Source of the DNA: Bacteroidota bacterium
GTDB taxonomy: Bacteria > Bacteroidota > Rhodothermia > Rhodothermales > UBA10348
Direction: 5' to 3'
Assembly: GCA_029262835.1 (NCBI GenBank)
Contig: JAJCYQ010000023.1
Span: forward strand, 40,767-104,766
DNA: 64,000 nucleotides
This document shows, in pieces, positions 6,407-26,085 of this stretch. The number at the start of each line of letters is the position of its first letter. Within the stretch, counting starts at the first letter, position 1. The notes under the pieces were generated by a model that saw only the letters and a list, made by a program, of their open reading frames with translations, was not told where the DNA came from and did not search any database. Both the position numbers and the translations under genes were made by a program.

Positions 6407-7515
6407 CAGTTCCCTCGATTGGAGATGCGAACGGCATCGCCTGTCGTGACATTGGTCTGCCCGCTTACAATGAGCTGCTCGCCGGGAGCCAGGCCGCTGG
6501 AAATGAGCGTGCGGCCCGATTCGGTGGGACCAGGTTCGATGGTCTTGAGGACAGCTCTTCCATCCTCTACGACATACACCGTGTAGCCGCTCTCATCTCG
6601 CAGAATGGAGTTCTGGGGCACAACCACCTGATCTTCATACGTTGCCCGTGTAAGCAATACGTCGGCGATCATTTCCGGCTTCAAGACGCCGTCTCGGTTG
6701 TCCAATTCAATTTCCACAGTGAATGTCCGGCTGCCCGGATCAATTACCGATCCAACGAAGGTCGCCTTGGCATCCCGGACATCGCCACCGTATGCGCGGA
6801 ACCGGACCTGCACGGGCGTACCCTCTGAAATATCATTGGCGTAGGTTTCAGGTACCCCGGCCCGCACGCGGACAAATTCTGTATTGACGATGCGAAGGAG
6901 GGCGGCGCCCGGCGCCACCTGCTCCCCTGGATCGATCATATGCTCTTCGATCGTCCCATCGAAGGGCGCTTTGACCGCCGAAAATTCCAGTTGCCGCTCG
7001 GCCGATGCCACGGCAGCCTGCGCCTGCGCAAGCGCCGCAGCGGCCTGGTCCCGCTGGGCGGTCACGTTCTCGAATTCCAGGCTTGAGATGATGGAGTCGG
7101 CAAACAGCCTTTCCTGCCGGTTGAATGTCTGGTCGGCGAGCTTGAAGGCCGCCTCTGCCGCACGTGCAGCCGCCCGGGCCTGTTCAAGGGCGGATCGGAC
7201 CAGGCGGTCATCGAGTCGCACGACAACATCACCCTGCCGCGCGCGCGTTCCAAGGGGGGTTATGTTCACGATCGTTCCTGCGGTCTCGGCCGAAAGCGTG
7301 GCATCGTTCATCGAAATGACCGAGCCCGTGAGCTGAACGAACTCTGTGAATGGCTCCGGTCGAAGCGTCACGGTTTCCACCTGCAGCGTACGCTCATTGC
7401 CGCCAGTCGCTGGCGCGGGGAGCGGTTTTGCCTGGTCCGCGGCAGGTTGCTGCTCGGGGTTCTGGCATGCGGCCACCGTAAGCGCGAGAAGAAGTAAAAA
7501 TAACCTGGGATGCAT
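6406..7515 (-). CDS. RND efflux periplasmic adaptor (membrane fusion protein), lipoprotein
   Basis: 369 aa. The N-terminus MHPRLFLLLLALTVAACQN has a lipobox (VAAC), so it is probably lipid-anchored. A lipoyl/barrel-sandwich half (GTIVNITPLGTRARQGDVVVRLDD), an alpha-helical hairpin rich in Ala/Gln/Arg (about residues 105-170), the second lipoyl half (VKAPFDGTIEEHMIDPGEQV) and beta-barrel and membrane-proximal domains follow. It links the inner-membrane pump to the TolC-like channel. It lies 11 nt downstream of the TolC-like gene and its stop overlaps the pump start by 1 nt, a standard tripartite operon order with the channel gene first. Confidence 0.95.
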   Translation of the reverse strand: MHPRLFLLLLALTVAACQNPEQQPAADQAKPLPAPATGGNERTLQVETVTLRPEPFTEFVQLTGSVISMNDATLSAETAGTIVNITPLGTRARQGDVVVRLDDRLVRSALEQARAAARAAEAAFKLADQTFNRQERLFADSIISSLEFENVTAQRDQAAAALAQAQAAVASAERQLEFSAVKAPFDGTIEEHMIDPGEQVAPGAALLRIVNTEFVRVRAGVPETYANDISEGTPVQVRFRAYGGDVRDAKATFVGSVIDPGSRTFTVEIELDNRDGVLKPEMIADVLLTRATYEDQVVVPQNSILRDESGYTVYVVEDGRAVLKTIEPGPTESGRTLISSGLAPGEQLIVSGQTNVTTGDAVRISNRGN

Positions 7516-7526
7516 GGAGGTATGGG

Positions 7527-9107
7527 CTACGGGGTAGAATCGCCGAGTGCCGTCTGATAGGCACTGAGTGCGACGAGATAGTCGTGTGTGGCCTGGAGAA
7601 AGTTCAGGCGCGCCTCGTCGAGTTGATTGCTGGCCTCGCGGACCTCGATGGGGCTGGCGACGCCCTCTGCCAGGCGGGCTTCTGCGAACTCAAAGTTGGT
7701 TTCAGCGAGGGCAACGTTGTCCTGCTGGGAAACCATGCGGGTACGTGCCGATGCTACGTCACGCAGCGCGGCGCTGACCTCGGTCCTGACGGTGCGTTCC
7801 AGGAACTTCGTGTCGAGTTCGGCACGTTGCAACGCAATTTTGCGCTGCTCGAGGCGCTGACGCGATGCCATGCCGTTGAACACATTCCACGTCAGGCGGA
7901 CGCCGCCGCTCACCGTGCGGTCCCACCAGGCGTCCGAGAAGAAGCCGAGTTCTTCGGAGGAAAATAGGAAAGGATTATTGGGATCCGAGGAGGTCACGAC
8001 CCGGTCGTCGGGCACACTACCCTGGAAATTATAATTGAAGAAGGCGTCAAGCGTGGGCATGAATTCGGCCCGCGCGACTTTAAGCTGGATGCGTTCGAGT
8101 TCCGTATTGATGCGGGCCTGTGACAGGTCAGGACGCCTGGCCAGCGCCCGTATGGCAGGTGAGGCGTCCGGATCAGGAGGAGGGAACCGGAGCGCGTCGG
8201 CTTCAAGCGAACCCCTGAGCCGGATGTCGAGCGTCACCTGAATGCCAAGGGTCAGTTTCAGGGCATCGAGCTGGGCGGCATATTCCGTTTCACGCTGCGT
8301 CAGCGCCGATTCCAGGTTGGCAAGCTCAACTGCCGCTGTCAAGCGCTGGAATTTCGGAGCAGTGCCTTCCTCGACCTGTCTGGATATCTCCGACAGCGTA
8401 CGCTCTGAGCGAGTCACTGATTCACGCGCCACATCGACACTGGCCTGAGCGAGTAGCGCGCCATAAAAAAGACGCCGGACGTCATCGACGAGTAGTTGCT
8501 GCTGCCGATTCAGACCCGCCTCGGTAAAGGGCTCCAGCCACCTGGAGGCCCCCCGTGCGCCGAAAAATGCCCGTCCGTCGAAGATTTTCTGGGTAACAGA
8601 CAGCCCGGCCAGGTACTGATTGGCAACCCCGAACGGATTCCCGCCCCCATCCTGCGCAACCCCAGCCGCTTCAAGGCCAGCCTGTTGGCGCTGAAAAAAC
8701 TCCTGGACTGTAATGGGCGATGTACTGTCGTCACCGTCGGTGCGGGCCTGCTCGTTGAAACTCAGCCAATCAATGAAGCCCAGCGACTGGAAAAACCCCC
8801 CTGCCTGGGATCCAGTGAACGGATTGGCTGTCCTGAAATTCCTCGTGTAGGAGGATGAGAGGTCAATCTGTGGAAAAAGCTCCGCCCATCCCTCACGGAC
8901 CTGCGCGCCCGCCGTCCGCAGGTCGAGTCGGGCCTGCTCAAGCGCAATGTTCTGCGCGAGCGCAACCTGGAGCGCTTCGTCAAGCGTCAGGACCAGTCTC
9001 TCGGCCGCTGGCTCGCTTCGTCCAGACGGTGCGTCAACGGACTGGGCACTCAGAGACCCGGCACCCACGACAGCGAGAAGTATCAGACAGGGGACGGCGC
9101 GTTTCAT
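7527..9107 (-). CDS. TolC-family outer-membrane efflux protein
   Basis: 526 aa from the ATG at 9107. I prefer this start to the ORF-track start at 9167 because it places a clean signal peptide (KRAVPCLILLAVVGAGSLSAQ) at the N-terminus. The body has two homologous TolC halves. The first begins LTLDEALQVALAQNIALEQARLDL; the C-terminal half has VNVFNG-type turns and long helices ending ANQLDEARLNFLQATHDYLVALSAYQTALG, the usual end of this family. It forms the outer-membrane exit duct for the RND pump encoded downstream, and is probably the first gene of the operon tolC-like / adaptor / pump / mpl. Confidence 0.94.
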   Translation of the reverse strand: MKRAVPCLILLAVVGAGSLSAQSVDAPSGRSEPAAERLVLTLDEALQVALAQNIALEQARLDLRTAGAQVREGWAELFPQIDLSSSYTRNFRTANPFTGSQAGGFFQSLGFIDWLSFNEQARTDGDDSTSPITVQEFFQRQQAGLEAAGVAQDGGGNPFGVANQYLAGLSVTQKIFDGRAFFGARGASRWLEPFTEAGLNRQQQLLVDDVRRLFYGALLAQASVDVARESVTRSERTLSEISRQVEEGTAPKFQRLTAAVELANLESALTQRETEYAAQLDALKLTLGIQVTLDIRLRGSLEADALRFPPPDPDASPAIRALARRPDLSQARINTELERIQLKVARAEFMPTLDAFFNYNFQGSVPDDRVVTSSDPNNPFLFSSEELGFFSDAWWDRTVSGGVRLTWNVFNGMASRQRLEQRKIALQRAELDTKFLERTVRTEVSAALRDVASARTRMVSQQDNVALAETNFEFAEARLAEGVASPIEVREASNQLDEARLNFLQATHDYLVALSAYQTALGDSTP

Positions 9108-9199
9108 GTAGAACGTGGGATGGGGAAAGCAACAGCCGCGAAGCGAAAACAGGCAACGACCGGCCATTACGTCCCGCAGGCTGACTGGTTACGTGAAGT

Positions 9200-11285: not shown

Positions 11286-12431
11286 TCAGAATTTGGTGAA
11301 GGTCCGGACGGTGCCCAAGGTGCCCGTGCGGAGCAGATAGATACCGGGCGCCAGATGCCCAACGTCGAATTCCAGATCTGTCGTACCGGCCGTCTGCGCG
11401 GGGCTCACGCTCCGGCCCAGCGTATCGTACACACCAACAGTCGCTCCGGGCCTGATGCCGCGAACGCGGAGGGTCACTGAAACAGGATTGGGCCAGACTT
11501 CCAATTCCGGCCGTACAGGCTGCTCGCCGGTGGAAGTGTTTACGACGACCGGCAGCAGTCGGGTGAACACGGGTACGTGATCCGATGTGTTGCTCAGGAA
11601 ACCTGGAATACCCTGTATGACCGAGCTGTGCCGATCGGTTGAGCCCGCATCTGCAGCGGCAAACAGTTCATTGCTCAGCAGGATATGGTCAATAGTAGAC
11701 GCCTGCGAGCCGCAGAATGTGCACACGCTGGCATCTTCAAGAGGCAATGTGGAGAAGCGGTAGTTGACTGTGTCCTGCATGAAATTTTGGTAAGGCGAGT
11801 CCTGTCCGCTCGTAATGGATGCGCGGAGTTCATCGTTGTAATCCCCGAGCACGACGAGATTGGTGCTCGATTCCAGGAAATCCAGGCGGAACTTGAGTCG
11901 TGAGGAGGCTTCCTGCCTGCGCGACCAGGAGTCGAGATCGGAGAATGCCTTCATGTGGACCGTGATGAAGGTCGCCGTGAAGCTGGTGTCGGGCAGCGTG
12001 ACCAGGGCTTCCATGACGAGCGGTGGTCGGCCAGCAAATGCGTTCGTGAAATCCGTCAGGATGTGCTCCGTCCTCAGCGGCTGGATCACGTCCGGGTTGT
12101 AGATGAACCCGATGCGCTGCTCCCCACTTTGCGTTGCCAGAGCACTCTCGTACGCGCCGCCAAGCGCCGCCAATACGCTTTGGAGCGCCAGAGGACTGGC
12201 TATTTCCTGGACGGCCCAGAGGTCGATGTCCGAAGCCGCGAGCACGTCACGCACATTGTCCTGCTGGCGCTCCTCATTCGACGGACCGTTCGACGCGCTT
12301 CCGAACCACTCGATATTCCACGTTGCGACGTCGAGCGTCGCCGCGCTGCCGACGCCCTGCACCTGCGCAGACGCAGCAGACGGAGCCAGCAGCAGTATTG
12401 CGACTGACGCGTAAAACCAGGTTCGAATCAT
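11286..12431 (-). CDS. Secreted endonuclease/exonuclease/phosphatase (EEP) family protein with T9SS sorting tail
   Basis: 381 aa. A Sec signal peptide (FYASVAILLLAPSAASAQ) precedes an EEP fold with its usual catalytic stations: VATWNIEWFG, LWAVQEI (metal-binding Glu), HMKAF, LGDYNDE (Asp/Asn), IDHILLS and SDHVPVF (Asp-His). From about residue 305 there is a type-A-like sorting domain: VWPNPVSVTLRV, GVYDTLGRSV, APGIYLLRTG and a basic end. The product is therefore probably an active extracellular phosphodiesterase or nuclease delivered by T9SS. It is the last gene of a co-oriented run starting at 23741, separated from the propeller lipoprotein gene by 9 nt. The exact substrate (DNA, RNA, lipid or inositol phosphate) is not decided by sequence. 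Confidence 0.88.
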   Translation of the reverse strand: MIRTWFYASVAILLLAPSAASAQVQGVGSAATLDVATWNIEWFGSASNGPSNEERQQDNVRDVLAASDIDLWAVQEIASPLALQSVLAALGGAYESALATQSGEQRIGFIYNPDVIQPLRTEHILTDFTNAFAGRPPLVMEALVTLPDTSFTATFITVHMKAFSDLDSWSRRQEASSRLKFRLDFLESSTNLVVLGDYNDELRASITSGQDSPYQNFMQDTVNYRFSTLPLEDASVCTFCGSQASTIDHILLSNELFAAADAGSTDRHSSVIQGIPGFLSNTSDHVPVFTRLLPVVVNTSTGEQPVRPELEVWPNPVSVTLRVRGIRPGATVGVYDTLGRSVSPAQTAGTTDLEFDVGHLAPGIYLLRTGTLGTVRTFTKF

Positions 12432-12440
12432 GGAGACAGC

Positions 12441-13694
12441 CTATTCGAAATCGGTATTCAACCGGAAGCGGGAAATGCGGTTGTTTCCCGTGTCGGCCAC
12501 GTAGACAATACGCTCGAAATAGGCGACGCCAAGCGGCCCGTTGAACTGACCGGAGCCATCGCCCGGTCCGCCGAATGACACATTGACCGGCTGCGTACTG
12601 GATGAGCCGGGAGGCGGGCTTACGCCTTCAACACCTTGTCCGGTGAAGACATGCAGGCTGTCCGACCCGGTATCGACTACGAAAATGAAGTTTGTACCGT
12701 CCATGGCGACCGTGATGTCGCCCACCCTTTCGAATTTGAATTCATCGTAGAGGAAGGAGTCGCCTGCCTCAGGATTGAAGGTAACCTGCAGTTTTTGCGC
12801 GTCGGGTTGGAATTCCGTTCCATTCGGCGTGTCAACGACGCGGATGGAAAGGGCCGAGAATCGCAGTGCGGGCGCTCCCGGGAGCCCAGGGGTCTGGCCG
12901 ACCAGAAAGTGCCTCTCCTCGCCGAAGAAGGCCCGCTGCGGAGGGTGAACGAAGGTCGTCACGGTCGACGGGAAGACGGAGCTGCGGAGGCTCGGGTTCG
13001 TCGGGCTGAGGGAAATCAGTGCCTGCCGCGGCGAGCCGTCGGGTCTGAACTCAAGGATGATATTGTGGGGGAAGAGGATGGAGCCGGCATCGTTGACGGG
13101 CCCCGTACGAGAAATATAGACGTTGTTGTCGGGCAGGACGCCGACGCTAGTGAACTCGACGTCTTGGTCGGTCGCGACCGGGTCCGGTCGGTTGAACCGG
13201 CGCGAATCGTCATCGAACGGATGCCAGATGATGTCGGCAATACGCGGCGATCCATCGGAAATGCCGTCAAAACGGTATACGACAGGCAGATTCCAGTTCT
13301 GACCGGCGAGCACCGTGTCTCGGCGCGCCGTCACATAGAGGTGCATGCGCCGGTCCTGGATTACGCTCGTCGCGCCTCCGGGAATGGCAATCAGCTCTGC
13401 CGCCCGCCCGGAGAGATCCATGATGTGTACGCCCGCTTCGTCGGCCACGTAGAGCAGTTCGTCGTATCCAACATAGACATCCTTGGGCGCGGAAAACGTA
13501 CCGGCACGGCCCTGTGTGAAGAAGGGAAACAGTGGCACATACTCGACCTCGTTGATGAGCGACGGCTCGGCGCGGCCGGCGTCAAAAATTTCATCCGTCG
13601 TGACGTCGTCCTTGGAGCCAAACACGCCGTCGCACCCGGCCGTGAGGACGGTCGCCAGCAACAGTGGTATGAAGAGCAGGGTTCTCATTCTCAT
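12441..13694 (-). CDS. NHL/6-bladed beta-propeller lipoprotein
   Basis: 417 aa. The N-terminus RTLLFIPLLLATVLTAGCDG is a lipoprotein signal; an alternative Met lies two residues downstream. Repeated blade-like motifs follow, e.g. PKDVYVGYDELLYVADEAGVHIMD, FIFVVDTGSDSLHVF and FNGPLGVAYFERIVYVADTGNNRISRF, the last being a classic NHL repeat. Such propellers generally bind ligands or proteins at the cell surface; no catalytic residues are evident. Its start overlaps the stop of the PorV-like gene by 1 nt, and it precedes the secreted nuclease gene by 9 nt, so it belongs to the same transcription unit. Confidence 0.85.
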   Translation of the reverse strand: MRMRTLLFIPLLLATVLTAGCDGVFGSKDDVTTDEIFDAGRAEPSLINEVEYVPLFPFFTQGRAGTFSAPKDVYVGYDELLYVADEAGVHIMDLSGRAAELIAIPGGATSVIQDRRMHLYVTARRDTVLAGQNWNLPVVYRFDGISDGSPRIADIIWHPFDDDSRRFNRPDPVATDQDVEFTSVGVLPDNNVYISRTGPVNDAGSILFPHNIILEFRPDGSPRQALISLSPTNPSLRSSVFPSTVTTFVHPPQRAFFGEERHFLVGQTPGLPGAPALRFSALSIRVVDTPNGTEFQPDAQKLQVTFNPEAGDSFLYDEFKFERVGDITVAMDGTNFIFVVDTGSDSLHVFTGQGVEGVSPPPGSSSTQPVNVSFGGPGDGSGQFNGPLGVAYFERIVYVADTGNNRISRFRLNTDFE

Positions 13695-14719
13695 TACAAC
13701 GTCAGGTTGAGTCCTACCCGGTTCACGTTTCCGAGACGATCCAGCCGGTTGAAGGCGTAATCAAAGCGCAGGTCGGGGCCCGAAATGGGCAGTTTCAGCC
13801 CCACGCCGAAGCTGGGTGTTTCGAACTCCTCGATGGCGAACCGGTAGCCCGTGCGCAGGAAAAGCAGGTCGTCCCAGCCGTACTCGACGCCGACATTCCA
13901 GTTTTCGGCATTGTCATTGGGGTTGTTCAGCTGCGCGGAGACCTGCACCATGTGATCGGGCCGGTCACGAAACAGTTCGTACACGGCCCCCATATGGAAA
14001 GTGGTCGGCGGCGTGATGGATTCGAAGTCCGTCTCCTGGACGGTCGGATTCGTTCCGATGACCGTACGCTCCAGCGTGCCGTCAGGGCGTCCGTCCACGC
14101 CGAAATTGCGGACCGAAACGGCGATATCCAGTCCGGTAGTCCCGACTGCGTAAAAGAAGCCAACGTCAAAGACGACGGTATTCGTGGTGAGCCCGGCCAC
14201 GCTTTCCCGGATGTACTTCGACGTGATGCCATAGGAGAAAAGGTCTGTAAGCCGCTGCGAGAACGTGACGCCGAGCGCCAGATCACGCAGCTCAAAGGTC
14301 TGGCCCGTTCCGAAAGGCTGGAACTCTGTCGTCACATCCATCTCGCCCGAATCCATGGTCTGTATGCTCGATGCAACGGCCATGTTCGTGCCGGGAATGG
14401 GATAGATGATACCTGCGTAGTCGAGCACGACGTCGGCGAAATATTCCGTGTGGAAAAAACCCGCCTGGATGCCCGTTGACTGTGCGACCAGTGCCGGATT
14501 CCAGAATATGGCGCCGACATCGGATGCCGATGCGACGACGGTCTGGCCGAGTGCGGCGCTTCGGGCATCGACAGGAATCTTGAGGAACTGGAAGCCGGAC
14601 GTACCGGCCCGTTCGTCTCCGAGGGAGGGCAGGAGCTGGGCGGCGGATGGCTGCGTTCGCCCACCGAGAACGACGAGCGCGGGTAGCAACAGGAGGATAT
14701 GTAGGAAACGTATGCGCAT
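13694..14719 (-). CDS. PorV/PorQ-family outer-membrane beta-barrel protein
   Basis: 341 aa. The signal peptide is followed by the signature of this family: GFQFLKIPVDARSAALGQT, then SASDVGAIFWNPALVA, then aromatic-alternating barrel strands to the C-terminal FDYAFNRLDRLGNVNRVGLNLTL. PorV-like barrels act in type IX secretion (shuttling cargo after translocation) or as related FadL-like outer-membrane proteins. It sits between a TonB receptor and a propeller lipoprotein, overlapping each by 1 nt. Context with three T9SS-tailed proteins suggests a locus-dedicated PorV-like partner, but that is inference. Confidence 0.87.
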   Translation of the reverse strand: MRIRFLHILLLLPALVVLGGRTQPSAAQLLPSLGDERAGTSGFQFLKIPVDARSAALGQTVVASASDVGAIFWNPALVAQSTGIQAGFFHTEYFADVVLDYAGIIYPIPGTNMAVASSIQTMDSGEMDVTTEFQPFGTGQTFELRDLALGVTFSQRLTDLFSYGITSKYIRESVAGLTTNTVVFDVGFFYAVGTTGLDIAVSVRNFGVDGRPDGTLERTVIGTNPTVQETDFESITPPTTFHMGAVYELFRDRPDHMVQVSAQLNNPNDNAENWNVGVEYGWDDLLFLRTGYRFAIEEFETPSFGVGLKLPISGPDLRFDYAFNRLDRLGNVNRVGLNLTL

Positions 14720-17625
14720 CAGAATCGGAAGGCCACCCCGAGCACGATATGGCGTTGGGGGAGGAACCGTGCCGGGTTCAGGGGCGGCAGACCGCCCGAA
14801 TCGGGGTCGTCGAATCGGAGATCACGTGTCCCGGTCGGTACATCGAAATTCCGGTTGCCGCGCAGCGTGGTCATGTCCACCTTGTTCGGGTCGATATCCG
14901 GGAAGGCCTCTCCTGTAACAGGGTTCACAATAATGCTGTTGGACTGATTGAAGAGGTTCGTAACCTCGAGCGTGAACACGACATTGGTACCCGCGACGGG
15001 GACGGTGCGCTGCGCGTTCAGATCGAACCACCACCAGGCGTCGCCGATCTCTGAGAACCGCTCTGCGGGGTCCTGGACGCGCTCGTAGATGGGCCTCCAG
15101 TCGGCTTCGCCCGTGAATGGGTTGACCTGGTTACCACGGAACTCCACGGGCGTGAAGCGCTGCCCACTCCGGTAGGTGGAGGAGAGGAAGACGCGGAACT
15201 TGTTGAGTCCCGGGATGCCAGCGAGCGGCGATGGCTTGTCGTACGAGTACGTCACGCTGGCCTTGATGTCTACCGGGCGGTCCCAGGCGAGTGGCGTCTC
15301 AAACGTATTGTCGATGTCGCCATCGGCCAGGAATTGGCTGAGGGCGTCGTTGTTCGTCGAGCTGAGTCCCGTGGCGCGGGAATAGGAGGCCGATACCTGT
15401 CCCTGGAAGGAGCGGCCAATGCGCTTGAGATAGCTGGCTTCAATACCCCGCACACGGGCAAAATCACCGTTTATGCGGAAGGCGCGTGTGACGTCGCGCC
15501 CGGTCGGGTCCTTTACGGTCACGTTCTGCACGGTGATGAAGTCGAACTTGTCGCGCCAGAACCCGGTCAGTGTCAGCACATCGTTGCTGGTAAACTGGGT
15601 GCGTAGGCCAAGCTCATAGCTGATATCGACCTCCGGGTCGAGGTCGGGGTTACCGAGATCCGAGAAAAACGACCGGTCCTGGAAGAACGGGTCCAGACCT
15701 GTGTACACAAACGTCGGGTGCGGCAGGATGGTCGAGTGGCCGTAGTTGAAAAACAGCACGCGATTCTCCTGGATGGGGAAGGAGACGCGCACCTTCGGCA
15801 GCATGCGAAACTTGGTGGCAAGACCAAAGACATTCACCGTGCCGTCCTTGTAGGACTCCCGGACCGAGTCCAGGATGGGTGCCTGGGGGTCGTCGATCAG
15901 ATCATCCACATATTTTCCAGGTGACCAGTACTCGAGCCGCGTGCCGAGGTTGGCGACGAGACCGCGGAACCGAATCTGATGGCTGACCCAGAGGCCTCCG
16001 CGGCGCGGCTTGACGCGCCAGATATCGGACGCTTCGCCAAGCCGGTTCGTACCCGTTCCCTCGGCGTCGGAACCAATCGGCGCGCCGACCCAGGGACGAA
16101 TGACATCAATCCATTGGTAGTCATTGAATTTCATCTCCAGACCCACGTTCGTCTGGTGATTTTTGGACACCGAGAACCGGGTATACGACACGCGGGCCGT
16201 CCATTCTTCGGCAAAGTGATCGTGGAATTGGGTGGCTATGCCCCCATTGTTGATGAGGCCCGGTCCCGGGAGCACGAAGAGTGCGTTCGGATCGAGTGGC
16301 TGGCCGTCATTGTCCACGAAAATATTCGGGGGGAAGGTCACAATGCTGGCCGGATCAAGCTCTGACGTAACGGCCTCAGGGCGCCAGCGGCGACCGTTGG
16401 CATCGGCGCGCAGCCGCGTGAAGAGGCGCGAAACCTGGATGTCATAGAAGGACCGGTCTCCAAGTACGTGGGACCACTTTACATACGATATGATGTTGTC
16501 GTGAGCGTACGTGTTGGCATTGTCCGGATCGAGAATGAATGCATATTGGAAGCCAGGTTGGACAATGGCGTCGTTCCCGGTTACCTGCAGCATGCGCGTG
16601 TTCTGGTTCACGGTGAACGAGCGCTGGTAGGATCCCTGCAGCTTCATGCCCGGCTTGAGCTGGTAGGTCAGCTTGGAAATGCCATTCCAGCGGTTACCCG
16701 TGCGCGGCATGAGGAAGGTGCCATCGACGAGCGACGTCCGGACCTGGTCGGGGGTGGACTGAAGACGCGTAAATCCATCGGAAAGCTGCACCTGTCCCGA
16801 CACGAAAAACCGGAGCTTCCCTTTGACGATGGGCCCGCTCAGATTGAATTCGAAGACTTCCTCCTTGAAGTTGGACTCGGCGTCGTCATTGAATCCCAGG
16901 TGATCCCGCTTGTGGTTGAAAAAACCCTCGAAGGTATCGGTGCCATCCTGGGTCTGTACGCTCACGACGCCCGACGTGACATCGCCGAATTCTGCTCCCA
17001 CGCCGCCCGTCGTTACCTCTATGGACTGGAAGGAATTCGACCCGAGGTCGAGCCCGAAGCCCGTGCCGGCGAGCGGATCCTTGGCCGAGACGCCATCTAC
17101 GATGAATCCGGTCTCATTCGCACGGCCGCCCCGGATATAGAGTCCTGTGGGGTCCTGCATAATACCGACCTGGGAAGAAACTGCATCCTGAACGTCCCGC
17201 AGTGGAGCTGCTTCCAGTTGCTCGCGACTCAGCCGAGTGGTCGATGCCGACTCCTCGACATCCACCAGTGGGCGCTCGCCGATAATGACCACCTCATCTT
17301 CCGTCGAGAGGACCGCTTCACCCAGTTCCACATTCAGCACGGTTTCCTCGCCGTCACGGATCTGCACGTCGGTGAAGAGTTTCGTCTCGAATCCGATGTA
17401 GGAAATGCGCACCGAATATTGTCCCGCGCGCAGGTTCTCTATCCGGTATCGGCCGTCGGAGTCTGTTGCCGCACCGCTCGTCGTGCCGGTTACTATGACA
17501 TTCACGCCGATGAGCGGTTCATTGAATTCGGTGTCGATGATGCGACCGACGAGCGTGCCCTGTGCCAGTGCCTCAGGCGCCATGACGAGGAAAAAGACCG
17601 CTATCAGAACCAGGTATCTTCTCAT
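14719..17625 (-). CDS. TonB-dependent receptor with N-terminal carboxypeptidase-regulatory-like domain
   Basis: 968 aa. A signal peptide (LVLIAVFFLVMAPEALAQ) is followed by a CarboxypepD_reg-like domain (GTLVGRIIDTEFNEPLIGVNVIV...GFET, residues 20-100), a linker with possible TonB box (EDEVVIIGERPLV), a plug domain (AVSSQVGIMQDPTGLYIRGGRANETGFIVDGV) and a 22-strand-type barrel ending in the aromatic QRHIVLGVAFRF. It transports an unidentified substrate across the outer membrane using TonB energy; a tonB-like gene lies at 53861. It is not clearly of the SusC type (no SusD neighbour). It overlaps the upstream lipoprotein gene and the downstream PorV-like gene by 1 nt each. Confidence 0.93.
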   Translation of the reverse strand: MRRYLVLIAVFFLVMAPEALAQGTLVGRIIDTEFNEPLIGVNVIVTGTTSGAATDSDGRYRIENLRAGQYSVRISYIGFETKLFTDVQIRDGEETVLNVELGEAVLSTEDEVVIIGERPLVDVEESASTTRLSREQLEAAPLRDVQDAVSSQVGIMQDPTGLYIRGGRANETGFIVDGVSAKDPLAGTGFGLDLGSNSFQSIEVTTGGVGAEFGDVTSGVVSVQTQDGTDTFEGFFNHKRDHLGFNDDAESNFKEEVFEFNLSGPIVKGKLRFFVSGQVQLSDGFTRLQSTPDQVRTSLVDGTFLMPRTGNRWNGISKLTYQLKPGMKLQGSYQRSFTVNQNTRMLQVTGNDAIVQPGFQYAFILDPDNANTYAHDNIISYVKWSHVLGDRSFYDIQVSRLFTRLRADANGRRWRPEAVTSELDPASIVTFPPNIFVDNDGQPLDPNALFVLPGPGLINNGGIATQFHDHFAEEWTARVSYTRFSVSKNHQTNVGLEMKFNDYQWIDVIRPWVGAPIGSDAEGTGTNRLGEASDIWRVKPRRGGLWVSHQIRFRGLVANLGTRLEYWSPGKYVDDLIDDPQAPILDSVRESYKDGTVNVFGLATKFRMLPKVRVSFPIQENRVLFFNYGHSTILPHPTFVYTGLDPFFQDRSFFSDLGNPDLDPEVDISYELGLRTQFTSNDVLTLTGFWRDKFDFITVQNVTVKDPTGRDVTRAFRINGDFARVRGIEASYLKRIGRSFQGQVSASYSRATGLSSTNNDALSQFLADGDIDNTFETPLAWDRPVDIKASVTYSYDKPSPLAGIPGLNKFRVFLSSTYRSGQRFTPVEFRGNQVNPFTGEADWRPIYERVQDPAERFSEIGDAWWWFDLNAQRTVPVAGTNVVFTLEVTNLFNQSNSIIVNPVTGEAFPDIDPNKVDMTTLRGNRNFDVPTGTRDLRFDDPDSGGLPPLNPARFLPQRHIVLGVAFRF

Positions 17626-19283
17626 TATCGACTCGGGAAGTCCAGGGCGCGGAGCAGCGCATGCACGACGAGTTGCCCCGCCGGGTCGCTTTCTCCTGGC
17701 GCAGTGAAGTTTTCCGTACTGTTCAAATCGTTCAGGAGGGGAAGCGCCATGAGCGCAATGCGGCGGTCGCTGCTTATGGATGCGACCGTCGTCGGGTCGG
17801 TCCAGTCGCCGCTGCCCCCGCTGGCCGAACGGAACCGGAACGCTCCTGTGTAAAGGGGCTCGATGTTGGCGCCGACGGCCCGGTATGGCCGCAGATTGAT
17901 GAAGAAGCGGTTCGATTCGAGCGGTGGCAGGCCGAGCGATGTCCCGATTGTGGTGGGCGTCACCGGTGCGCCTGTACCAAGTTCAAGGCGCCGGACGGAA
18001 TCAGGGACCACCAGTGGCTCGGAAAGCGGCAGGAGGAGTACCGCTGCGTTGTCTGTAAAGTCTGTGTCGACGGTGGGCACATTTACAGGGCTATGGACGA
18101 GCATTTTTCCACCGTTTCCGAAAAATTCGGCCATGGCGGGGGCAACAAACGGCATGTTGTCCGTGCCCACGTTGCCGGTCGTGCTCGTCGACACCCAGTA
18201 TATGTACCTGTAGAGCGAGAGGGTGAGCCGGAGCATGGGTTCAGCCACCGGGGGTAGCGCAGATGACCGGGGTACGGTGCCAGACGAGCCTGTTGTAAAC
18301 GGCTCCGAAATGTCCCATGTGTCCACAGGGCTTCCAGCTGGCAAAAAAGCCTCAAGTACGCCCAGATGATATTGCTGGACGACGGGATTCGTGGCCAGCC
18401 GGTAGTCATTCACATACAGGATGTCGGATGCATTCCGCTTGACGCGCCAGGTGAATCGCTCAATGGTGCTCGTCGTGTCTGCCTGGTCTGTCGTTCTGAT
18501 ATAGAAGGTGTTGTCAGCGTCGAGCAGCATGCCCGGGACGACGAGCGAGGTCGCCTCAACGCCGCGCCCGAGGAAAAGGCGGGCATCTACTTCGCTGGCT
18601 GTAGTTACCTGGTTCTGGTCGCCGACGAGCGTTACGAAATCGAATTCAGGTGGTATTTCAACAAAAGAGGTACTGTCATTCAGACTGAGACCAATCGATT
18701 TCAGGTTCTGTACGCCGTCCGGGTCGTCCGGGACGAAAGCAAAGCTGATGACAGGAAAAGTGGTATCCGGTGGCAATTCAAACTGGCTGAACCGGATGGT
18801 GGGCGGCGAATTCTGGATTGGAAATACGCTGCGTGCGGGTGACGGGTCTTTTTCGCCCTCGTTGTCTACCGCGCGGACTTCAACAATCACATTGGCTACA
18901 GATTCGCCGGACGGCAAAGGAAGTAGGAGGAGCGAGTCGTTACGTGTCGTGAATATCCACCCAGCGTCACCTGCCGGAGACTCCGTAGCCGGAAAGACGC
19001 GCAGGTCGAAACCGGATACAAAGCCATCGGGGTCATCTCCCGACCAGGAAAGTCGCAGTGTGGACAGCAGCCGGTTATCATCGGCCAGATTGTCGACGAG
19101 CGATTCATCCCGCACACTGAGCGACGTGTTGGGGGGCTCGTTCTGAAGGGAACTGCCTTCAAAATCGCTGTCACAACTGGTCAGCGTGACCAGAAAGAGC
19201 AGGGTCAACAGAAGAATGACCAGCCGCGACTGGCGGTCGTCAACAGTCGGGAATGCGAACACGGGGTGACGGAATAGGGTCAT
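17625..19283 (-). CDS. Large lipoprotein with Fn3/Ig-like repeats and a possible amidotransferase-like domain
   Basis: 552 aa. The long N-terminus RLVILLLTLLFLVTLTSC is a lipoprotein signal. Two immunoglobulin/fibronectin-like segments follow (RLSWSGDDPDGFVSGFDLRV; FAFVPDDPDGVQNLKSIGLS). From about residue 290 the pattern ILYVNDYR...LGVLEAFLP...YIYWVSTS...MAEFFGNGGKMLVHS resembles class I glutamine-amidotransferase-like folds found in surface proteins, without an obvious catalytic triad. Function unknown; it may bind substrate for the adjacent TonB receptor, whose start overlaps its stop by 1 nt. A strong terminator-like hairpin lies immediately upstream of its ATG. Confidence 0.8.
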   Translation of the reverse strand: MTLFRHPVFAFPTVDDRQSRLVILLLTLLFLVTLTSCDSDFEGSSLQNEPPNTSLSVRDESLVDNLADDNRLLSTLRLSWSGDDPDGFVSGFDLRVFPATESPAGDAGWIFTTRNDSLLLLPLPSGESVANVIVEVRAVDNEGEKDPSPARSVFPIQNSPPTIRFSQFELPPDTTFPVISFAFVPDDPDGVQNLKSIGLSLNDSTSFVEIPPEFDFVTLVGDQNQVTTASEVDARLFLGRGVEATSLVVPGMLLDADNTFYIRTTDQADTTSTIERFTWRVKRNASDILYVNDYRLATNPVVQQYHLGVLEAFLPAGSPVDTWDISEPFTTGSSGTVPRSSALPPVAEPMLRLTLSLYRYIYWVSTSTTGNVGTDNMPFVAPAMAEFFGNGGKMLVHSPVNVPTVDTDFTDNAAVLLLPLSEPLVVPDSVRRLELGTGAPVTPTTIGTSLGLPPLESNRFFINLRPYRAVGANIEPLYTGAFRFRSASGGSGDWTDPTTVASISSDRRIALMALPLLNDLNSTENFTAPGESDPAGQLVVHALLRALDFPSR

Positions 19284-19285
19284 GT

Positions 19286-19327
19286 TGAAAAAAGAACAAC
19301 CCTGGGGCGCCTGGCGGCGCCCCAGGG
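19286..19327 (-). terminator. Intrinsic terminator or attenuator hairpin directly before the 19283 start codon
   Basis: Read on the minus strand: a perfect 12-bp GC-rich stem (CCCTGGGGCGCC / GGCGCCCCAGGG, plus-strand arms 19300-19311 and 19316-19327) with a 4-nt loop, followed by TTGTTCTTTTTT. This is a textbook Rho-independent terminator for the 19351-21525 gene. The U-tract ends only a few bases before the ATG of the next gene, so it may also act as an attenuator controlling readthrough. Confidence 0.85.
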
Positions 19328-19350
19328 CATTCTTTCAGATCGCACGTGCG

Positions 19351-21525
19351 TTATTTCACAAGCATCATGGTGCGCGTCAGGCTCTTCTCACCCGTCTGCA
19401 GACGGTAGAGGTAGAGACCGCCTGCGAGACCTTCTGCCTCAAAGCGGGCAGTGTGCTCACCAGCTGTCTTGTCCTCTGAGACAAGCGTCGTCACCTTGCG
19501 GCCCAGTACGTCATACACTTCGAGCGTAACCGGTCCGGTTGTGCCGACCTCATAGCGGATTTCGGTCGATCCCGTGAACGGGTTCGGGAAATTCTGCTGG
19601 AGCGCCACAACGCGTGGGAGTACGTCATCCTCGTTCGCCACGTTCGTGACTTCGCCGATGTCGTCAAGGCTTCCGGGCTCCAGCTTGAAGTTGCTGAAGG
19701 AGAACCAGAGCGTGCCCTGTACGAATGCCAGTGTTTCGCCTTCCGCAAATACGGTGCCTGGATCACCACCTTCATAGGACAGGTTGCTCGATGCATCGTC
19801 GACGCGAAGGGCATCGTCATCTGTACCATTTGAGACGTTGAACTCACCGAAAGGCCCACTTGGCGCATCCGCGTTTGTTGCGGTCACTGTCACGTTCTCG
19901 ACGCGAACGAACATGCCTTCAAGAGACTCCGCCACCTCTGAATCCTGCAGTGCGCTCGTTGGCACAACGATGGGGCTGAAGATATCACCTCCTGTCGACA
20001 CGATTTCAAAGGTGTAATCACGCAATTCAGTCAGGTCGAAACTCTCGCGAACCTCGGCGTTCGTAATCCGAATTACGTCTCCCTGGTTCACACCGGCTGC
20101 GAGCAGAGGGTTGCCAGAGCTACGGAGTGTCAGGCCTGACCAGGGGCTGGCACCGTCCTGGACGGCCAGAACGCCTGTCGCCGGGTCAGTCATGACGGTC
20201 ACTTCCAGATCCATATCGACGACGAAGCGGTCGAAGGGTGAACTGCTGGAACCCGAAGCTGGCTCCTGGATGTCACGAACGTCCGTGATCCCATCAAACA
20301 ACACGCGGTACGAGTTCTCTACCGTAGTCGACACGGCGCCTTCGTTGTCCGTTGCGCTGATCGTGAATGTGACAAATGAGCGGTCAGCCTGAGCAGGAAT
20401 CTGGAACGTCCATGTTCCATTTCCAGCATCCGTGCCCGCGACGGTACCCGAGGCTCCGCCGGAAGTCGTGAAATCCAGCGAAGTTGACGTCAGCGTACGT
20501 GTCTGATCGACTGCAATATCCGCAGCAATCGTCACCGGGTTGTTGCCTGGAATGGTAGACGGCAATTCAATATTTGAGATATTCGGCGGCGTCTGCGTGA
20601 TAACCAGATCGGCATCTTCCCATGGCGTGATCTTGATCAGAGCAACCGCAGGATCTCCAATCTCGAACGGGTCGAAATCCGAACGCAGAAGCGCAAATCC
20701 CTGCACGTTCACGGTCGCACCCACCGGAGGCGCCGTAAAGTCGTTCGTTGCATTGAAGTCGGACGGGTAGTCCGTGCGGTCATTGCGGAATTGCAGCGAA
20801 ATGTCGTCGTTGGAAATGACGGCGTTTGTTGCCAGGTCGCGAAGGGCCCAGTTCGGGCGGTCGTCTGTCCGGTTGGGAGACTGGAAAACCTGGACGCCTT
20901 CAATACGGACAAAGTCCTGGTGCAGCGCACTGAAGTTGTCCCAGTTGGCACGTCCCTGATTAGTGCCCGTCGGCTCGTTCAGATCGGCGATTGTGACGGT
21001 CCGTGGCTCCAGAATGGAGGCTGGCAGGCCCTGGTCCTGGTATGTCCCGAGGAACTCTACATTCGATGGAGAGAACTGGATGCCGACACCAAAGTAGGCG
21101 ATTTCGCCCGTGAAGCGGACGACATCACCCACGAACAGGTTCAGCGAGCCGGTCGCGCGGAAGTTTCCATCCACAACCTGCATGACCTGTCCATCAAATC
21201 CAGCCGTAGCCGCATTCACGTCACGAACAAAATAGTGGACGCGTGAGGGTTCGTTTGTTGACGAGTTGACGCTCGATAGACCGGAATTACGGGGGTCGGA
21301 GACGACGACAGCCGTAAACTGGACGGTTTCACCCTCGAATGGGGAGCGGATATTGGCAACGATATCATCGAAAGTGATATCGGCACCAAGCGCATTCGCA
21401 GCATCAATACCTGCCTGCGGGATGGCATTGATCTCGGCAATGGTTGAGACGGTCTGAGCCTGTGTCGTCTGGATGGCAAATGCTGCAATGAGCAGTAGCA
21501 TCCAGGTAGTAGCCAGTTTTTTCAT
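19351..21525 (-). CDS. T9SS-secreted multidomain protein with OB-fold-like and Ig-like modules
   Basis: 724 aa. Signal peptide (TTWMLLLIAAFAIQTTQAQ), then an N-terminal module (GETVQFTAVVVSDPRNSG... GDVVRFTGEIAYFGVG) resembling OB-fold domains that accompany extracellular nucleases. A middle Ig-like section (IAADIAVDQTRTLTSTSLDF) and a second OB-like half (GVNQGDVIRITNAEVRESFD) follow. The C-terminus is a clear type-A sorting domain: LQQNFPNPFTGSTEIRYEV, LEVYDVLGRKVTTLVSED, GLAGGLYLYRLQ and a basic MMLVK end. It has no catalytic signature of its own. It is co-oriented with the EEP nuclease at 11286. T9SS export is well supported; the nucleic-acid link is inference. Confidence 0.85.
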   Translation of the reverse strand: MKKLATTWMLLLIAAFAIQTTQAQTVSTIAEINAIPQAGIDAANALGADITFDDIVANIRSPFEGETVQFTAVVVSDPRNSGLSSVNSSTNEPSRVHYFVRDVNAATAGFDGQVMQVVDGNFRATGSLNLFVGDVVRFTGEIAYFGVGIQFSPSNVEFLGTYQDQGLPASILEPRTVTIADLNEPTGTNQGRANWDNFSALHQDFVRIEGVQVFQSPNRTDDRPNWALRDLATNAVISNDDISLQFRNDRTDYPSDFNATNDFTAPPVGATVNVQGFALLRSDFDPFEIGDPAVALIKITPWEDADLVITQTPPNISNIELPSTIPGNNPVTIAADIAVDQTRTLTSTSLDFTTSGGASGTVAGTDAGNGTWTFQIPAQADRSFVTFTISATDNEGAVSTTVENSYRVLFDGITDVRDIQEPASGSSSSPFDRFVVDMDLEVTVMTDPATGVLAVQDGASPWSGLTLRSSGNPLLAAGVNQGDVIRITNAEVRESFDLTELRDYTFEIVSTGGDIFSPIVVPTSALQDSEVAESLEGMFVRVENVTVTATNADAPSGPFGEFNVSNGTDDDALRVDDASSNLSYEGGDPGTVFAEGETLAFVQGTLWFSFSNFKLEPGSLDDIGEVTNVANEDDVLPRVVALQQNFPNPFTGSTEIRYEVGTTGPVTLEVYDVLGRKVTTLVSEDKTAGEHTARFEAEGLAGGLYLYRLQTGEKSLTRTMMLVK

Positions 21526-21542
21526 GGGTTCTGTCAGGTTGG

Positions 21543-23741
21543 TTATTTGATGATGACGAACTTGCCACGCTGAACGTCGCCGTCGTCAAGGTCTTTCACG
21601 GTGAACAGGTAAAGGCCTCCAGCGAGCCCCAGGCCGTTGTCGGACAACAGGTCCCAGGAATGTTCACCACCAGGCTGGATGCGACCAGGCGCGCTGAAGT
21701 CGTCAAACCACCGGGTATCCCCGATGTAAGTCTCAGCGTCATGATCGAGTGTCGCTACGATTTCACCCGCGAGCGTGTAGATCCTGATCTGGGATCGCGG
21801 CGGGAGATTGTAAAAATTGAGTTTGCGCGTCCGGTTCGAGTCGCCGTCCCAGGCGGCATTGACGCGGTAGGGGTTGGGATAGACGCCGACCTCCTGCGTG
21901 CCTTCATCATCGGCGGGCGTGCCAGGGAACACCCGGATGCTGTTCGCCACACGGGATGACTCGAACGGATTGAGCCCGGCGTCCGGGTCTCCACGGTCGA
22001 ATGCCGTCACGGCAAACAGGTACTGCCAGCCGTTACGCAGGTCACGCGCTTCAAAACGATACCAATATTCGGTCGGGTCGCCCTCGAACTGGCGGGCCTC
22101 GTCGAGTTCGACTTCTCCGAAGCCGTTGTTGAAGCCGGTCCGATTTCCGGCCACGTCGTACTGTGCAATGAGTGACGCCGCGTCGGCGATATTGCCTCCG
22201 CGATCGTCACCGGGATCCGAGCGGTAGAGCCGGTAGCCTTCGAAGTCCTGTTCACCCGTTACGGGATCAACCGATTCTTCAGCCGTCCGGTCCCAGTAGA
22301 GTGCCACAACCGGGGTATCGGTCGCCGGGTCCCGCTCGAATTCAACGCGGACACGGGGCGATGCCGGGGGCTCCGGAATCAGATACCGATCCAGCACGCC
22401 GTTTCCATTCACATCCTCGCCAGCATCGAGCCGGCCATTGAAGTTATTGTCCTCGCCGCCATACGTGCGCCGGGCCCACTGGATATTGTTGGCAAGCAGG
22501 GCGCGGGTTTCGGGCGTATCGACTGACTTGCCACCTGGACCTTGGAATTCCTCTGGTTTGAGGGCGGCAACGAGCGCGAACGTGACCTGGAGGGTATCGC
22601 CGGGGAGGACCTGGGGGACGGGTCCCATGGGCGTCAGGCCAATCCAGTTACCTGCCGAAATCTGTCCATCGGTCCGAAGGCGCGTGAACCAGGCCTCTTC
22701 TGCGTCTTCAAGTTCTGCCTCGGACCCAAATTCGGCGGGATTTGGAAACGGCGTGGACATGCGGCGGTAGCGCTCGTCGTCATTTCCGGGTCGGTTCAGT
22801 TCGTCGCTTCCTCCCGAGAAAAGCCACCAGCGCGGGTTGACTACGGGGGGCTGCAGGCCGTCTGCAACGAACTCATCGGCTACGGCCGGATGGAAAAAGC
22901 GCTTGCGGCCGGTCGCGGGATCACGCCACTCGGCGCCAAGGACAGCGACCGATCCGTACGTGTTCAGAGTCTCTTCGGCGCCACCCGCATTGAATGCGTA
23001 CATGGTCTGGAGCGAATCAATGTACCCGAGTCCGCCTTTGTTGAAGAACGCGCCACCGGTGTCGTTCGTGGTATTCACATTGCGCACCACGAGGTCGTGG
23101 AAGAGGCCTACGTATACGTCCTCCCATGCGGCTACCGACGTGTTGATGATGTCGAAGTTCAAAATGGCAAACGACTCCGTGAACGGAAAATTCCACGCGA
23201 ATGTGGACATTTCAACGGTCATGCCGAGCCGGCCAGCCACGTCCGGAAGCTGGATGGACGTGTTCGGGAGCACGCTGGACGTGTCTTCAAATGCCGTAAG
23301 CAGATCCTGGTGACTGACGGCGTCGCGCGTGAATACTTCGGACGTCGGAAGAGACGAGCGTGTCCGGAAGAGCTGGTTCTGCGCGAATTCATAGCCCGTG
23401 GCACCGGGCGAGTACCCACCTGAAGACGTGACGGCACCTGTCCGGACCGTGATCGTGCCGTCTGAGCGACGCGCCCCGATCCAGAGACCTGCTTCAAACA
23501 GGTGCTCTACGCCTGAGTTCAGAGGAAACTCGAAGGAGGGATCACCCGTCGGATTGTTGCGCACGTTCGAGCGGCCCACGAAGCCAGCGTTCGTGACCGT
23601 GATACCCACGTTACCTACATCGATCAGGGCTTCCTCGAAAGAGGCCTGGGCACGAACCTCATGGGCAGGCGCTCTGGCCGTCACCACGAGGACGGCCAGG
23701 AAAACAGCAGGAAACAGGACAGATTGGTAGCGGAATAGCAT
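21543..23741 (-). CDS. T9SS-type secreted protein with calcium-loop motifs, unknown function
   Basis: 732 aa. Signal peptide (SVLFPAVFLAVLVVTARAPAHE), then a large extracellular region. At about residue 420 two adjacent DxNxNGxxD-type loops occur (NNFNGRLDAGED, VNGNGVLDRY), likely calcium-binding. A fibronectin-like segment follows (VVALYWDRTAEES...FEGYRLYRS). The C-terminus has sorting-domain features: VGVYPNPYRVNAAW, IRIYTLAGEIVATL, GLAGGLYLFTVKDLDDG and a final GKFVIIK. It is the first gene of the seven-gene co-oriented run, 17 nt before the OB-fold protein gene. A structural or adhesive surface role is possible; no enzyme signature seen. Confidence 0.82.
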   Translation of the reverse strand: MLFRYQSVLFPAVFLAVLVVTARAPAHEVRAQASFEEALIDVGNVGITVTNAGFVGRSNVRNNPTGDPSFEFPLNSGVEHLFEAGLWIGARRSDGTITVRTGAVTSSGGYSPGATGYEFAQNQLFRTRSSLPTSEVFTRDAVSHQDLLTAFEDTSSVLPNTSIQLPDVAGRLGMTVEMSTFAWNFPFTESFAILNFDIINTSVAAWEDVYVGLFHDLVVRNVNTTNDTGGAFFNKGGLGYIDSLQTMYAFNAGGAEETLNTYGSVAVLGAEWRDPATGRKRFFHPAVADEFVADGLQPPVVNPRWWLFSGGSDELNRPGNDDERYRRMSTPFPNPAEFGSEAELEDAEEAWFTRLRTDGQISAGNWIGLTPMGPVPQVLPGDTLQVTFALVAALKPEEFQGPGGKSVDTPETRALLANNIQWARRTYGGEDNNFNGRLDAGEDVNGNGVLDRYLIPEPPASPRVRVEFERDPATDTPVVALYWDRTAEESVDPVTGEQDFEGYRLYRSDPGDDRGGNIADAASLIAQYDVAGNRTGFNNGFGEVELDEARQFEGDPTEYWYRFEARDLRNGWQYLFAVTAFDRGDPDAGLNPFESSRVANSIRVFPGTPADDEGTQEVGVYPNPYRVNAAWDGDSNRTRKLNFYNLPPRSQIRIYTLAGEIVATLDHDAETYIGDTRWFDDFSAPGRIQPGGEHSWDLLSDNGLGLAGGLYLFTVKDLDDGDVQRGKFVIIK

Positions 23742-25917: not shown

Positions 25918-26085
25918 TCAACCCGCCTTGGCACCATCATCGTCTTCGTCTTCGTCGACCAGCATGCGCATGCCGGGAGTGTCGACATCGTCGTACTGGC
26001 CCGAGCGGACGCTCCAGATGAATGCGGCTACGCCGACGCCCGCGAGGGCCAGTGCAAGTGGAACCAGGAAGTAGAGGACATTCAC
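25918..26085 (-). CDS. ccoS: Cytochrome cbb3 oxidase assembly protein CcoS
   Basis: 55 aa, missed by the ORF track because it is short and starts with GTG (26085). Translation begins MNVLYFLVPLALALAGVGVAAF, then WSVRSGQYDDVDTPGMRML, the unmistakable CcoS pattern of one TM helix plus a short cytoplasmic GQ[FY]DD-TP motif, and ends in an acidic tail. CcoS is needed for cofactor insertion (heme b and CuB) into CcoN. The GTGA at 26082-26085 is both its start and the stop of ccoI, arguing for coupled translation and supporting the non-ATG start. Confidence 0.95.
   Translation of the reverse strand: MNVLYFLVPLALALAGVGVAAFIWSVRSGQYDDVDTPGMRMLVDEDEDDDGAKAG

Follow-up and report, generated by a model that had tools for sequence, protein, structure and literature searches.

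The window analyzed here is a 64,000-nucleotide stretch of a contig from a bacterium of the order Rhodothermales (Bacteroidota). Positions 11286-23741 of it hold seven intact open reading frames, all on the minus strand, which we term P1 to P7 in their 5' to 3' order. The features of the locus are:

21543..23741, minus strand: P1, 732 aa, predicted to be exported, with a tail like T9SS sorting domains
19351..21525, minus strand: P2, 724 aa, putative T9SS cargo with two OB-like pairs flanking an Ig domain, related to DUF5689
19299..19328, minus strand: P2/P3 hairpin resembling an intrinsic terminator, with a 13-bp stem and a TGTTCTTTTT tail
17625..19283, minus strand: P3, 552 aa, lipoprotein with a fibronectin-type N-terminal region
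14719..17625, minus strand: P4, 968 aa, TonB-dependent receptor with a CarboxypepD_reg domain, plug and barrel
13694..14719, minus strand: P5, 341 aa, outer-membrane barrel of the PorV/PorQ family
12441..13694, minus strand: P6, 417 aa, lipoprotein with an NHL (beta-propeller) repeat
11286..12431, minus strand: P7, 381 aa, EEP nuclease with a T9SS sorting tail, in a variable seventh slot

The co-oriented, partly overlapping genes described in the sequence-only reading of this DNA are thus present, with 1-base overlaps at three junctions (17625, 14719 and 13694). A strong terminator-like hairpin (19328-19299) sits between P2 and P3 and sets P1-P2 apart from P3-P7, making a single simple transcript of all seven genes improbable. 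The hairpin was also present in two close relatives, and six of the seven Balneolales loci examined carried a hairpin of unrelated sequence at the same junction. An Rfam search of the locus gave no match, a sigma-70 scan returned fewer sites than the chance number, as expected where promoters differ, and no description of the locus was found in the literature searched.

P7 exceeded the cut-offs of both the Exo_endo_phos domain (PF03372, 43.5 bits, cut-off 24.5) and the T9SS sorting tail (TIGR04183, 29.8 bits, cut-off 23), and eight residues that we take to be catalytic from general knowledge of the EEP superfamily (N39, E76, H159, D197, N199, D248, D284 and H285) were all invariant in an alignment of 33 homologs, confirming the earlier description of an intact EEP protein with its own T9SS tail. 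That description also depended on P7 grouping with nucleases rather than with sphingomyelinases or inositol phosphatases. Among the 33 homologs, NCBIfam models of MnuA matched 26, of ExeM/NucH 14 and of exonuclease III (xth) 11, and no sphingomyelinase, lipase or inositol-phosphatase model matched any. Judged by these profile matches, with P7 of the window itself matching nuclease models below their curated cut-offs (12.4 bits against 300 for ExeM/NucH, NF033681), its sequence places P7 in the nuclease branch of the EEP proteins. Its nearest solved relatives in the PDB are EEPD1 and DNase I. Apart from the EEP domain and the T9SS tail the protein holds no further domain, OB region and lamin tail domain both being absent.

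P2 likewise carries a T9SS sorting domain (TIGR04183, 39.4 bits, cut-off 23), and its body comprises two pairs of OB-like modules (~67-161 with 205-300, and 434-510 with 539-616) with an Ig domain between the pairs. The modules show the order bbb-a-bb, the strand order of OB folds, in an AF2 model (pLDDT 88), match the DUF5689 unit in profile comparison and give weak matches to OB-family Pfam models; on these grounds the OB-fold-like modules proposed for this protein are retained as OB-like. DUF5689 itself (PF18942) was not detected in the P2 of the window and gave a weak match in 2 of 32 Rhodothermales P2s, and the P2s of Balneolales exceeded its cut-off (38-52 bits against 28.6). Searching with the whole P2 model in Foldseek yielded only uninterpretable chimeric multi-domain matches, and a PDB sequence search yielded an Ig match plus sorting tails. 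In the loci that we read, DUF5689 was found fused to EEP, PLD or endonuclease I, beside P1-P6 or beside TonB receptors, and DUF5689-EEP fusions adjoin the locus in Balneolales. The latter lend some support to the proposal that P2 and P7 are separated parts of an ExeM-type enzyme; however, since P2 coexists with such fusions, it is not simply their split-off half. The longer P2 of Balneolales was also considered as an OB-EEP fusion, and this was ruled out, the extra part containing no EEP domain and, in two loci (L165 and L166), including a chitobiase C-terminal/fn3-associated domain.

P1 is the non-receptor member with the widest conservation (mean column identity of 66% over 25 homologs) and has no Pfam family. 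No Pfam model passed for its tail in any of the 25 homologs, and what points to a T9SS tail here is profile comparison with the tail of P2 (91.6% probability). Of the two T9SS-tailed surface proteins originally proposed, P2 therefore stands and P1, below the curated cut-offs, is a candidate. The structural model of P1 was modest (pLDDT 72), its whole chain gave only chimeric multi-domain matches in Foldseek, and a PDB sequence search found no match. The lipobox cysteine of P3 was invariant in 39 homologs, and its PDB sequence search returned matches at chance level only. P6 combines an NHL repeat with a lipobox. P5 is placed in the PorV/PorQ family by NF033709 (188 bits, cut-off 90) and falls below the PorV equivalog (82 against 250). 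P4, with CarboxypepD_reg, Plug and barrel domains, is single-copy and 59-96% identical to its homologs within the order.

A TonB receptor, putative binding proteins at the surface and a hydrolase placed there are what the locus shares with Sus-type polysaccharide utilisation loci, a likeness drawn earlier. By membership it is not one of them: neither SusD nor a glycosidase is present among the seven genes, P4 scores far below the SusC cut-off (TIGR04056, 65 bits against 368), a PorV-like barrel and an NHL lipoprotein are found, and the locus is single-copy and strongly conserved where Sus-type loci are variable.

P1-P6 constitute a single-copy six-gene core. Of the 48 Rhodothermales loci in which three or more core genes were present, 47 had them in uninterrupted order, the sole exception (L111) being a region picked on a weak match. 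The order was also kept in all 20 Balneolales loci, one of which was cut after P3, and in each of the 28 named genome contigs that carry six genes, among them contigs of Ignavibacteria, Neomarinimicrobiota and Fermentibacteria. The gene order thus recurs across Rhodothermales, a point on which the sequence-only reading had hinged, and in other classes and phyla. A constant order and a single copy in different families and classes show that the arrangement is not due to chance.

The seventh slot is more variable. P3 and EEP were each found in 59 of the 114 genomes of the order, in nearly the same genomes, and in the survey of Rhodothermales loci 34 had the EEP gene immediately behind P6. Most Rhodothermales show this placement, as does one Ignavibacteriaceae, and in others the gene is next to P1. 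In Balneolales, EEP lay within 10 kb of P1 in 14 of 52 genomes, in several arrangements, against an expectation of ~0.6% per genome (the P value is indicative only, since the genomes are related); near the P1 of Balneolaceae it was not seen. Several Balneolaceae carry a gene for a type I phosphodiesterase/nucleotide pyrophosphatase after P6, sometimes behind a second TonB receptor, and the gene after P6 in Ignavibacteria encodes a DUF5689-PLD protein or, in one Ignavibacteriaceae, an EEP protein with a sorting tail. The nuclease theme suggested earlier therefore recurs beside the core with unrelated folds, and the nuclease is an exchangeable accessory of the six genes. Cores with no nuclease after P6 occur as well (an S41 peptidase, amino-acid kinase, citrate transporter or helicase is found there), and some Bacteroidia have P1 alone, with or without P2; given these cases, the core may have another job.

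The locus was also compared with the distribution of the type IX system. With the weak P3 match of one genome (G033) left aside, the P3-positive genomes of the order have a PorU sortase above cut-off, save one fragmented genome (G076). One family (f13) has a single genome with PorU above cut-off (G084), and within that family the locus is found in this genome alone. Two other families (f14 and f15) have the sortase and lack the locus, which indicates that the locus is not a core part of the T9SS.

The reading that we favor, and to which we give slightly more than even credence, is that P1-P6 form a surface apparatus that captures nucleic acid outside the cell, most likely DNA, and takes it in, with P7 as its cutter. 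P2, P7 and probably P1 would leave the cell via the type IX system and be presented at its surface, where nucleic acid would be held by the four OB-like modules of P2, possibly also by P1 and the lipoprotein P3, and cut by P7. Fragments would then be imported through P4, energized by TonB, with the barrel P5 and the propeller lipoprotein P6 as presumed partners, and may serve, after further breakdown, as sources of phosphorus, carbon and nitrogen, or be handed to ComEC. Of these two fates, we consider nutritional use somewhat more likely than transformation.

The nuclease-free cores of several lineages, the stand-alone P1 of some Bacteroidia and the PorV/PorQ-family barrel would also fit a general surface or T9SS-related assembly with a ligand other than nucleic acid, near which nucleases lie since T9SS cargo is often encoded near PorV-like and TonB genes. 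We find this rather improbable: nucleases of unrelated folds (EEP and PLD) recur next to the core, the modules of P2 are common to the DUF5689 unit of those very nucleases, and the f14 and f15 families carry the sortase without the locus. The surface-export signals on P2 and P7 could instead serve binding and remodeling of biofilm-matrix DNA outside the cell, without import, in the manner of ExeM, as ExeM-type nucleases with OB regions function in biofilm formation (PMC6085458). This is very unlikely, however, as a single-copy, strongly conserved TonB receptor central in the operon should have a transported ligand. Finally, the EEP superfamily includes phosphatases and sphingomyelinases, and P7 could be one of these in a locus taking up phospholipid or inositol-phosphate products. 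We regard this as scarcely credible in view of the nuclease models matched by the P7 homologs and of EEPD1 and DNase I as best solved relatives; moreover, in one related DUF5689 locus endonuclease I occupies the place of the nuclease, and its occurrence in DUF5689 fusions points to nucleic acid over lipid.

Natural transformation, which we judge unlikely, would make the locus an outer-membrane DNA-uptake station in which P2 binds double-stranded DNA, P4 carries it across the outer membrane with TonB energy, P7 does the trimming and one strand passes inward via ComEC. It is suggested by Riemerella anatipestifer, in which the adjacent RA0C_RS04920 (DUF5689) and RA0C_RS04915 (CarboxypepD_reg outer-membrane protein) are each essential for transformation, several transformation-essential proteins are unlike any known uptake machinery (PMC8459023) and tonBA or tonBB mutants are impaired in transformation (PMC8383284). 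Furthermore, in 18 of the 20 flavobacterial-type loci that we read, a receptor of this type and a DUF5689 protein are accompanied by an EEP gene, which usually adjoins the pair. Our locus resembles the Riemerella pair, a CarboxypepD_reg receptor adjoining a secreted DUF5689 protein, but P2 here has a T9SS tail and a DUF5689-like unit that is doubled and divergent, P1, P3, P5 and P6 have no counterpart there, and P4 is no nearer to the flavobacterial receptor than to other TonB receptors. Orthology of P4 to the Riemerella receptor was accordingly not supported, other receptor groups matching at least as well in hhalign profile comparison (E 4e-25 for a SusC-like and 6e-21 for another group, against 3e-13 for the Riemerella-type group). 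A comparison for complementary distribution of the locus and flavobacterial-type receptors was uninformative, because the profile caught a broad receptor group and only three candidates were scored per genome. All 16 genomes of one family (f3) have the T9SS sortase and are without detectable ComEC, P1 and EEP together, but this correlation stems from one clade; some P1-positive genomes are without detectable ComEC (e.g. G196, 98% complete), and ComEC is present in 70 of 85 near-complete P1-negative genomes. ComEC was dropped as a discriminator, its pattern being clear in one family and lacking in Balneolales (Fisher p ~0.015 over related genomes). In addition, a surface nuclease would destroy donor DNA, and the phosphodiesterase/nucleotide pyrophosphatase after P6 in several Balneolaceae better fits nucleotide salvage.

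Of the known systems, ExeM/NucH (Shewanella ExeM; PMC6085458) is likewise extracellular and combines an EEP domain with an OB-type nucleic-acid-binding region, yet here separate chains carry the OB modules and the EEP domain, and P7 has a T9SS tail and no lamin tail domain. The Bacteroidota DUF5689-nuclease fusions encoded next to TonB receptors share an OB-like unit, a nuclease, often a T9SS tail and the receptor; they differ in being one chain and usually lacking P1, P3, P5 and P6. The fusion of DUF5689, a family listed as of unknown function, to nucleases of three unrelated folds makes nucleic-acid binding its candidate function.

Extracellular DNA offers phosphorus, nitrogen and genes in abundance, and to our knowledge the mechanism by which DNA passes the outer membrane in Bacteroidota and their relatives is largely unknown. 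Tentatively, and at less than even confidence, we propose that P1-P6 may be an undescribed outer-membrane nucleic-acid importer, extending from Rhodothermales to Ignavibacteria, Neomarinimicrobiota and Fermentibacteria, which would use a TonB receptor in place of a pilus and secretin, together with an exchangeable surface nuclease. A syntenic, single-copy locus with a nuclease slot, found over several phyla, provides named targets for gene deletion and for protein assays.

The sequence-only reading had placed seven open reading frames on one strand, several overlapping by 1 nt, and these were found as described, with 1-nt overlaps at the P3/P4, P4/P5 and P5/P6 junctions:

P1, minus strand, 732 aa: exported protein
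P2, minus strand, 724 aa: predicted T9SS cargo with OB-like pairs
P3, minus strand, 552 aa: lipoprotein with a fibronectin-type region
P4, minus strand, 968 aa: TonB-dependent receptor
P5, minus strand, 341 aa: PorV/PorQ-family barrel
P6, minus strand, 417 aa: NHL-repeat lipoprotein
P7, minus strand, 381 aa: EEP enzyme, probably a nuclease

Curated families back P4, P5, P6 and P7 in these roles, as well as the proposed type A sorting tails of P2 and P7; the tail claimed for P1 was not recovered by curated T9SS models, and it aligns with the P2 tail in a profile comparison. P1 and P3 matched no useful Pfam family, either themselves or via their homologs, except for fn3 in some P3s. The flanking genes are ordinary: at window 2594-9167 an RND efflux operon, and beyond the other end, at 26082-30474, a heavy-metal P-type ATPase accompanied by a FixG/CcoG-like ferredoxin. 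An alkaline phosphatase (PF00245) gene lies on the opposite strand (36437-37939), ~13 kb from the P1 start.

The order of the core genes, P1 to P6, proved to recur widely. It was unbroken in 47 of the 48 Rhodothermales loci that hold three or more of these genes, the sole exception (L111) being another region, chosen through a weak hit, and it was retained in all 20 loci of the sister order Balneolales, one of them ending after P3. Named genomes hold at least 576 P1 relatives; among the best 80 of these, 28 carry the complete six-gene set in this order, many others ending at contig ends. The full order was seen in Ignavibacteriales, Melioribacteraceae, Flavobacteriia, Sphingobacteriales, Neomarinimicrobiota and Fermentibacteria, and one Bacteroidia group carries P1 by itself or with P2 only. 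P3, single copy save where split across contigs, occurs in all 27 genomes of the window's family, labelled f1, and in 59/114 of its order. Outside the window's genus, most P4 homologs share 59-76% identity with the window's copy, which is high for a TonB receptor and suggests one constant ligand. Genus g4 of the window's family shows a tandem P2 duplication (L070:2976-6908; L072).

Between P2 and P3 lies a strong terminator-like element:

window 19299-19328: hairpin with a 13-bp GC-rich stem and a T tail

Hairpins of like kind and unrelated sequence stand at this junction in 6 of the 7 Balneolales loci inspected and in 12 of 35 relatives overall, few of them in other Rhodothermales. Transcription of P1-P2 is therefore probably separate from, or unequal to, that of P3-P7, in keeping with the occurrence of P1 by itself or accompanied only by P2.

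Locus-bearing genomes of the order have the PorU sortase over the cut-off, save the fragmented G076, and in family f13 PorU fell below it except in G084, the only f13 genome with the locus. Since families f3, f14 and f15 have PorU and the locus was not found in them, it appears to depend on the T9SS without being a component of it.

Turning to P7, residues N39, E76, H159, D197, N199, D248, D284 and H285 were unchanged in all 33 homologs. Kinship with sphingomyelinases or inositol phosphatases would have spoken against a nuclease, and the P7 homologs matched MnuA, ExeM/NucH and exonuclease III models, with no lipase or inositol-phosphatase match among the family models; the closest solved enzymes, EEPD1 and DNase I, were weak matches. 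The EEP gene tracks P3, being present in 59/114 genomes of the order, and the two differ in few genomes, mostly incomplete ones. It directly follows P6 in 34 loci of the Rhodothermales set and precedes P1 in two (L106, L107); f9 and part of f12 encode it away from the locus. The Balneolales homolog is usually longer, with DUF5689 preceding EEP where checked, and is found no more than 10 kb from P1 in 14/52 genomes (chance expectation ~0.6% per genome, the count being inflated by kinship of the genomes). Among other placements there, it adjoins P1 divergently (L162, L164), lies upstream on the same strand (L225) or sits behind a divergent DUF5689-PLD gene (L226), and because these arrangements differ we argue that the association arose repeatedly. 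The Balneolaceae genome G139, in which no P1 was detected, also carries tandem EEP genes (L224:6821-9521) close to a type I phosphodiesterase and a TonB receptor.

The gene after P6 varies: in most Ignavibacteria examined it encodes a DUF5689-PLD protein, in one Ignavibacteriaceae (L283) an EEP with a sorting tail, and in L189 and L199 a sorting-tailed PLD protein. Counter-evidence to the nuclease link comes from L280, L289, L296, L302 and L303, where P6 is followed by something other than a nuclease gene. DUF5689 fusions to endonuclease I, PLD or EEP bear T9SS tails and adjoin TonB receptors or the locus:

L203:7689-9950: DUF5689 with endonuclease I, beside a TonB receptor
L206:7920-10118: DUF5689 with PLD, beside a TonB receptor
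L226:5006-8221: DUF5689-nuclease fusion, locus-linked
L164:898-2733: DUF5689-nuclease fusion, locus-linked

Because unrelated phosphodiesterase folds, endonuclease I among them, share the DUF5689 unit, nucleic acid would be the simplest common substrate, and these fusions suggest that DUF5689, a family of unknown function, may be a nucleic-acid-binding OB unit.

P2 itself appears to be built of similar modules. Its AF2 model (pLDDT 88) contains strand-strand-strand-helix-strand-strand modules:

~67-161, 205-300, 434-510 and 539-616: modules 1 to 4
~331-407: Ig-like domain

In profile comparisons module 1 pairs with 3 (92.6%) and 2 with 4 (91.2%), and module 3 matches the first half of the EEP-fusion DUF5689 unit (91.0%) and module 4 its second half (94.8%), so that P2 resembles a pair of divergent DUF5689-like units; the P2s of Balneolales exceed the DUF5689 cut-off directly. 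Since Foldseek matches of the whole chain were uninterpretable, we only infer from the model that the modules are OB folds.

A possible use of such a locus is suggested by Riemerella, in which transformation requires both a DUF5689 protein and a CarboxypepD_reg outer-membrane protein (PMC8459023, whose consulted passages name no EEP gene); TonB mutants are also impaired, one through iron (PMC8383284). In the 20 flavobacterial-type loci read (L169-L188) a CarboxypepD TonB receptor adjoins a DUF5689 gene, an EEP (Exo_endo_phos_3) gene being adjacent in 18, usually divergently, and from domains and gene order these pairs are probably orthologous to the Riemerella genes. Profile comparison found no specific relatedness between P4 and the Riemerella-type receptor, so the window's locus may resemble that system in how it works without belonging to it.

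That precedent would speak for a DNA-uptake station serving natural transformation, as would family f3, which has PorU, lacks the locus and shows no detectable ComEC in 16/16 genomes (G028-G043), a single clade and hence suggestive only. We consider this use somewhat less likely than a nutritional one. Balneolales have ComEC with or without the locus, and a few P1-positive genomes have no detectable ComEC. Nutritional use is favoured by this retention without ComEC, by the predicted surface nuclease and by several Balneolaceae (L149-L154, L156) in which P6 is followed by a type I phosphodiesterase/nucleotide pyrophosphatase gene, in some cases with a second TonB receptor between the two.

The best reading of these sequences is surface capture, cutting and TonB-driven import of nucleic acid: P2, with P1 and P3, would capture the substrate, P7 would cut it, and P4 would import it with P5 and P6 as partners. 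Beyond what the sequence-only reading had seen, the interest lies in the core's breadth, its fixed order and its exchangeable nuclease slot.
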